Source: Spongospora subterranea (Eukaryota; Endomyxa; Phytomyxea; Plasmodiophorida; Plasmodiophoridae). Taken from it: a stretch of 64,000 nucleotides of DNA. The stretch covers positions 28,703-92,702 of the forward strand of contig OUQQ01000009.1 in the NCBI GenBank assembly GCA_900404475.1, in the 5' to 3' direction. A program made the translations under genes and the position numbers. The stretch's first letter is position 1, and each line of letters starts with the position of its first letter. The notes under the pieces were generated by a model. That model was not told where the DNA came from. It was given only the letters and a program-made list of their open reading frames with translations, and made no database searches. This document shows positions 50,084 through 50,936 of this stretch, in pieces.

Positions 50084-50936
50084 TCATTGTGACAACGTTG
50101 ATGTCCATCCCAACGATGACCTGATTATATTTTCCACAAAATTGTCCATCCTTTTTCTGGCAGCGCGATTGGCCATAGAAAATGGGAAATTACGATTCAT
50201 GTTCCAAGGTTCTTTCCATAGATTCTGTACATTGTAGTCGCAAAGGGATATCACGTAATTCCAGCAACTGGCTGTGAATGACGAAATTTCCAATCGCTGA
50301 CTCTGAGATAAAATAGCCAGTCCAGTACGGGAGTTCTTGATTGATGAGCAAAGCCCCTTGTCATCGGGGTTTACCCCAACGGTCCAGTGAGCTCTGTATG
50401 GGTACGCTACACGAATTGATAAGCGAATATTATTCGGGAGCAAGTGCGTATCTTGAAATTTGAACAAATGATCCACACAGGAGCGTTCGCGATTTCGTCG
50501 GCCGGAAAAATGACATGGCTGAAATGTCAAATAAAGCGTCAGCGTTCCATGCTTGCAGGTTTTGATTTTGCCAAGCAACTTTAGGTCTTCCATCATAAAT
50601 ATTTCCGCGTGTTTTGAAGGAGAAAGGCGATTTTGATATCGAGAAACACATTGTTCGCGTCCGCTTTGGTCGGAGAGTCTGGCAACAAGTACTACCTTCT
50701 TCCCTGAACATGTTCGTGCGCCTTCTAAATTCGCCAAGCAGCACAGCCGTATGGGGCCTTCTGGTGTGTCCCGGATGTGCCTTCATACAACAGGTTAATT
50801 CATTCGGCCGCTAACATCGTGAAGATTGCCCATTTTACCAGAACGCCTCGCAGAACTGAGTCAGGTTGCCTAACAATGATGACCCGGGTTGGAGCTGATC
50901 AAGGTGTCTGATCCCATCAGAATCATCATTCAACAT
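50084..50936 (-). CDS. AID/APOBEC-like cytidine deaminase, two exons
   Basis: Exon 1 is the complement of 50839-50936 and exon 2 the complement of 50084-50780. The 58-nt intron (GTAAAA...GAAG) is phase 2; the product is 264 residues. Exon 1 supplies the helix LLGNLTQFCEAFW; exon 2 starts with strands LCCLANLEG and KKVVLVARLSD. The zinc site is H90-A91-E92 (PSKHAEIFMMED), C122 (TLYLTFQPCHFSG) and C134 (RRNRERSC). After it come RLSIRVAYPYRAHW, SSIKNSRTGLAILS and SQRLEISSFTASCWNYVI, in the order of the AID/APOBEC beta4 strand, alpha4 helix, beta5 strand and the 'WxxFV' end. The spacer between the two cysteines (PC-x11-C) is longer than the usual PCxxC. Expected activity is C-to-U deamination of single-stranded nucleic acid or a nucleotide. 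Family membership is inferred from motifs, not a search. Confidence 0.8.

Follow-up and report, generated by a model that had tools for sequence, protein, structure and literature searches.

Which enzyme does a two-exon gene on the minus strand of contig OUQQ01000009.1 encode, and what might that enzyme do? The gene runs from 50936 to 50084 in a 64,000-nucleotide stretch of the contig (hereafter the window), and an earlier note on this DNA had read it as an AID/APOBEC-like deaminase with an unusually long second zinc motif, possibly a mutator of retroelement complementary DNA (cDNA). In vertebrates, AID/APOBEC enzymes are the basis of antibody diversification and of mutation directed against viruses, and AID/APOBEC-like deaminases (AADs) have been described from animals, dictyostelids (slime moulds) and algae. 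We found the gene to be intact, and the membership of its product in the AAD fold superfamily was confirmed by profiles, homologs and predicted fold.

Gene structure and family membership

The spliced frame reads 264 residues without interruption and carries HAE at residues 90-92, PCHFSG at 121-126 and C134, just as the note had described. Exon 1 (50839..50936; all features of the gene are on the minus strand) carries the codons for residues 1-32, and codon 33 up to its second base. It holds C29 and is open from the ATG at 50936, with an in-frame stop upstream. A 58-nt intron follows (50781..50838), bounded by GT...AG (GTAAAA...GAAG), in which TTAAC could be the branch site. Exon 2 (50084..50780, stop codon included) completes codon 33, continues to residue 264 and encodes the catalytic AID/APOBEC-like domain. 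Since the homologs P0006, P0007 and P0017 read through the junction, with a block resembling LLGxLxQFCxAFWHI across it, and joining the exons restores their W33-H34 reading, the splice is supported by homology; where P0007 has ..RPGGSLLGSLEQYCGAFWHIEATPEAG.., the window protein has ..QPGSSLLGNLTQFCEAFW, continued beyond the junction by HIRDTPEGP. The N-terminus, MLNDDSDGIRHLDQLQPGSS, is polar by eye and has no visible signal peptide, an unseen upstream exon being possible.

The Pfam scan was run with exon 2 alone as query, and two deaminase clades passed the gathering score, NAD1 (PF18778; 34.4 bits, cut-off 27, E 3e-8) and SNAD4 (PF18750; 28.7 bits, cut-off 27, E 1.5e-6). The APOBEC4 profile stayed below its cut-off (24.6 bits vs 27.2). 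The protein matched its best homolog by phmmer with an E of 1.5e-26, and this value together with the two scores above the gathering threshold means that the reading frame is not a product of chance. Profile and sequence searches collected 85 homologs, which were realigned with the window protein into 86 rows, fragments included; all per-column counts below are over rows with a letter. An AlphaFold model of exon 2, in which each position is the residue number minus 32, reached a pLDDT of 89.4 and a pTM of 0.88. In fold comparison 45 AID/APOBEC chains ranked ahead of dCMP deaminase and TadA, and the two predicted models resembled AID/APOBECs more closely than they did any other deaminases. The NCBIfam scan gave no match for any of the seven proteins submitted, and a PDB sequence search with a 16-row profile reached at best an E of 0.21, with TadA first and APOBEC3H among 14 weak matches, so that the sequence alone falls short of any solved structure. 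Because NAD1 and SNAD4 both match and the best Pfam models of the homologs differ, or none matches, the family corresponds to no Pfam clade described so far. We place the window protein neither with the classical AADs nor with the SNADs, since it lacks two classical features (the short PC-C spacing and SWS) and shows no signal peptide by eye; it may still work like one.

The predicted catalytic site and the long zinc motif

The HAE motif (residues 90-92; 50603..50611) supplies the predicted zinc ligand H90 and the predicted proton shuttle E92, each present in 84 of 85 rows. The second zinc motif, PCHFSG-RRNRERSC (residues 121-134; 50477..50518), contains the predicted ligands C122 (85/86) and C134 (86/86), and H123 and S133 are likewise found in all 86 rows. 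All four of H90, E92, C122 and C134 occur in 83 of the 86 rows, the window protein among them. The canonical motif is given in PMC11004436 as HxE-x25-30-PC-x2-4-C; the HxE-x28-PC of the window protein fits this spacing and its PC-x11-C does not. The long spacing proposed in the note as the mark of a subclass is found throughout the alignment: 7-25 residues separate the two cysteine positions in 85 rows, most commonly 13 (44 rows), and 11 in the window protein and P0085. The outlier is P0074 with 49, where an insertion or an unspliced stretch is present. Also missing is the SWS before PC, which PMC8201067 names as a feature of classical AID/APOBECs. The window protein has TFQPC in its place, and immediately before PC 76 of the 86 rows have Q and the other 10 have N.

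In the model, strand 79-87 leads to C90 (C122 of the protein), followed by a loop and by helix 102-117, which begins with C102 (C134). Since C122 follows strand 3 and C134 opens the helix, the extra residues appear as a loop inserted between the ligands, with the second ligand still at the start of helix 3. Conservation and modelled secondary structure agree with H90, C122 and C134 meeting at one zinc.

Other conserved features

Four further residues are nearly invariant: C29 (50850..50852; 77/77 rows), H34 (50777..50779; 76/77, with R in P0014), C47 (50738..50740; 77/77) and C57 (50708..50710; 78/78). Among the rows having letters at all four positions the set is complete in 75 of 76. Between H34 and C47 there are 12 residues (72 rows) or 13 (4 rows), and the gap between C47 and C57 varies from 4 to 19. 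Sets of invariant Cys and His residues like this one are often zinc-binding, and we therefore predict another metal site next to loop 1.

In APOBECs loop 7 reads the substrate. At this position, between beta4 and alpha4, the family has YRAHW (residues 161-165; 50384..50398), nearly fixed at Y161 (84/86), R162 (86/86), A163 (83/84), H164 (80/84) and W165 (84/84). The beta4/alpha4-like segment that the note had pointed out is RLSIRVAYPYRAHW at residues 152-165; in the model YRAHW comes just after strand 119-127 (residues 151-159). An invariant asparagine, N83 (50630..50632; 82/82), precedes HAE at what we take to be the position of the Asn that contacts the substrate sugar in AID and APOBEC3A. 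The W-x3-I end (SCWNYVI, residues 204-210, with the AID-like SCW at 204-206) is by contrast not shared by the family: at column 205, 76 of 78 rows have Asp and one has Glu, and Cys occurs in the window protein only.

The host and its genome

The host looks like a fungus with flagellated spores, an argument from hallmark genes and not a phylogeny. The window also encodes an axonemal dynein light chain, a Pex24p-like peroxin and calreticulin. The genome (20.6 Mb, 679 contigs) gave 11 matches to chitin synthase and three to Zn2Cys6, with matches to either in none of 14 control genomes. The alpha-aminoadipate reductase (Lys2), a fungal hallmark, gave seven matches at one locus, covering model positions 82-1203 and none alone over the cut-off; the same search gave matches in 12 of the 14 control genomes, again none over the cut-off. 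Tubulin had 2 matches and light-harvesting proteins had none in the genome. Of the zoosporic protist named in the note, the zoosporic half is borne out by the axonemal dynein light chain, and the unspecified protist gives way to what looks like a fungus, to which chitin synthase, Zn2Cys6, the Lys2-like locus, Pex24p and the absence of light-harvesting matches point.

Three other elements of the window were seen. A convergent neighbour on the plus strand (47962-49985) has two frames and ends with its stop 98 bases from the deaminase stop; the first frame matches bZIP weakly (16.8 bits, cut-off 27.6) and the second matches DUF5730 below threshold, and both may belong to a single intron-containing bZIP gene. 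A plus-strand macro-domain frame (39342-39923; 35.6 bits), possibly ADP-ribose-related, lies some 10 kb away from the deaminase. A U3 snoRNA gene on the minus strand (27189-27412) is a full-length match to RF00012.

Proposed mechanism and the retroelement test

We consider it reasonably probable that the protein is a competent AAD that converts C to U in single-stranded nucleic acid, likely against a virus or transposon. The catalytic zinc would be bound by H90, C122 and C134 and E92 would shuttle the proton, in line with the chemistry outlined in PMC11004436, in which a zinc-activated water attacks cytosine C4 and the HxE glutamate of AADs gives the proton. Loop 5 would be enlarged by the 11 residues between the cysteines, with helix 3 still opening on C134; the second metal site would pin loop 1 to the N-terminal segment; and YRAHW together with N83 would form the substrate groove. 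That the target is single-stranded nucleic acid we infer from the fold, and zinc binding, the second metal, the loop roles and the activity are predictions of the same kind. The most likely use, against foreign or mobile nucleic acid such as a virus or transposon, is a guess by analogy, made in view of 71 reverse-transcriptase matches and two matches of the uracil-DNA-glycosylase family in the genome, and of chytrids being reported (PMC6572847) to show no sign of repeat-induced point mutation (RIP).

Several findings weigh against this proposal. The genome search found one deaminase copy, hence no arms-race expansion. C29 lies in exon 1, outside the modelled exon 2, so that conservation is what speaks for the second metal site. 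Finally, hypermutation was not clear in the sampled retroelements, a weak test given that young copies were too few. The comparison was pairwise and covered 20 regions, which contain 24 of the 71 reverse-transcriptase matches in full and a further one in part. Of the inter-locus pairs longer than 1 kb, the two most alike, at 88% and 81% identity, had balanced transitions, 17/14/19/17 and 24/18/20/20 for C-T/T-C/G-A/A-G. The note's mutator of retroelement cDNA was accordingly not supported.

One region, L036, has on the coding strand between 1450 and 1940 an excess of sites where it carries C and a partner carries T over sites of the reverse kind, and this holds against all four of its partners. 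The C-versus-T counts were 12 v 3 at 89% identity, and 21 v 9, 26 v 4 and 16 v 5 at 69-70%, and G/A had no matching excess in the same direction. Because these sites, of which the direction is not polarised, fall most often at one codon phase and share no single context, base composition or synonymous drift seems a better account of the C excess than editing; if it did come from editing, L036 would be the unmutated copy and the trace would lie in its relatives. Beside the reverse transcriptase of another region, L042, we noticed a 1.39-kb near-perfect palindrome (3447-4835; 98% over 1398 columns), either a foldback element or an assembly artefact.

A bolder version of the proposal, which we regard as doubtful, is that zoosporic fungi, reported to lack signs of RIP, use a two-metal branch of AADs as a mutational defence against viruses or transposons. 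If true, mutational immunity of the AID/APOBEC type would reach into Fungi, and would prove much older than believed or more frequently transferred. An intact AAD in an apparent zoosporic fungus already widens the range of the superfamily, and its family signature of a long PC-C loop, a predicted CHCC second metal site and a nearly fixed YRAHW can now be tested. The origin of mutational immunity, and the mutation of invaders by early fungi lacking RIP, likewise become testable questions, and a divergent predicted cytidine deaminase whose recognition loop is fixed is also relevant to base editing.

Alternative explanations

The alternative that survives best, possible although on balance not expected, is an active AAD whose C-to-U editing is aimed at the cell's own transcripts (mRNA or organelle RNA) and serves a housekeeping or developmental role, not defence. 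The single gene copy would suit this. So would the almost complete conservation, across the family, of YRAHW in loop 7 and of the residues predicted to form the second metal site, unlike antiviral loops, which evolve fast. In 35 of the 85 homologs the first 60 residues contain a Y-[VI]-[APS]-P motif with R at its end, YVPPHLR for example, which resembles YIPPHLR of DDX3; among the 74 homologs that begin at Met and extend to C29 the count is again 35. YIPPHLR binds eIF4E, and its counterpart could tie those homologous deaminases to translation or RNA; YIPPHLR, eIF4E and DDX3 occur together in four papers. The window protein itself does not have the motif, and no upstream exon carrying it was found on the minus strand of 50700-52600, where this motif was the only one searched. 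Nor did the Pfam scan of exon 2 match an RNA-binding domain.

Unlikely, in our judgement, is that the fungus recently acquired the gene from an alga (a haptophyte as prey or host), or that the gene is a contaminant, and that it lacks a settled role there. Two trees, from which 4 and 12 of the 86 rows were dropped as short, broken or very long-branched, group the window protein weakly with a set holding Prymnesium sp. and Diacronema lutheri (SH-aLRT 87; 74/87 in the second tree), which is what a transfer would give. However, its branch is long, at 1.29 changes per column, it falls in no firmly supported set, and the placement is unsettled. The gene moreover has an intron and a local guanine-cytosine content of 0.42, against 0.41-0.50 over the window, and it sits on a 92.7-kb contig with the dynein, peroxin and calreticulin genes.

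The same long branch, together with the unusual zinc spacing and the lack of an SWS motif, could mean that the protein keeps the AAD fold and binds nucleic acid with little or no catalytic activity, as APOBEC2 is said in PMC8201067 to be an AAD devoid of deaminase activity; the four catalytic residues are nevertheless intact here as in most of the family, which makes this distinctly improbable. Highly implausible, and dropped on fold rank and profile score, is that a nucleotide deaminase such as dCMP deaminase, or a tRNA deaminase such as TadA, has been taken for an AAD: PF00383 is touched by the window protein at 15.1 bits, below the cut-off of 25, although several homologs carry a precomputed PF00383 label and some pass its cut-off (P0001, P0002 and P0010, 3/10 scanned; P0009 and P0011, 2/10 in another scan), and both enzymes rank behind the AID/APOBEC chains by fold.

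Comparison with known systems

Relatives were also sought outside eukaryotes, and neither a viral nor a prokaryotic origin was upheld. Viral contigs, where giant viruses may be thin, gave 16 pattern-matching stretches with each of two alignments, none of which passed tblastn; phage records searched with homolog P0023 gave no relative; and the one match in a viral fold library at E <= 1e-3 overlapped poorly (TM 0.34 and 0.40, rmsd 11). Prokaryotic genome contigs gave 11 and 62 pattern matches, none confirmed. Coarse literature searches, over titles and the starts of abstracts of the 10-20 best-ranked papers each, found no AID/APOBEC report in fungi. Among the homologs themselves, P0001, P0023, P0025 and P0060 are single predicted frames on contigs up to 21-34 kb, possibly from giant viruses or intron-poor protists. 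P0016 has a sub-threshold C2H2 jaz-type zinc finger match (18.4 bits, cut-off 22.6) and P0082 a CCHC knuckle label (PF00098), in both cases an extra nucleic-acid-binding zinc finger.

Set against the animal AID/APOBEC-like clades NAD1 and SNAD4, compared here by profile score only, the window protein resembles both in scoring over the gathering cut-off, and matching both it belongs clearly to neither. It has PC-x11-C, an N-terminal CHCC set and no signal-peptide-like N-terminus by eye; PMC11004436 reports an N-terminal signal peptide in 26 of 38 SNAD1s. APOBEC4 is a weak, sub-threshold profile match. It too has a longer PC-C spacing, and we know of neither YRAHW nor CHCC in it. The classical AID/APOBECs (AID, APOBEC3A/B/G/H) share 13-21% sequence identity with the window protein in the 50 structural alignments shown, and it differs from them by its stretched loop between the zinc cysteines, by TFQPC for SWSPC and by YRAHW in loop 7.

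Two haptophyte AADs, P0070 of Diacronema lutheri (its record name begins 'APOBEC-like N-terminal domain-con...') and P0053 of Prymnesium sp., are of the same family by profile. Since AADs have been described from algae, this haptophyte part of the family may already be known. Both proteins have PCH-x-S-[GS]-GH...SC, YRAHW and the CHCC set, and are 31-32% identical to the window protein; their cysteine spacings are 25 (P0070) and 16 (P0053) against 11, and the window protein is without the GH after PCHFSG.
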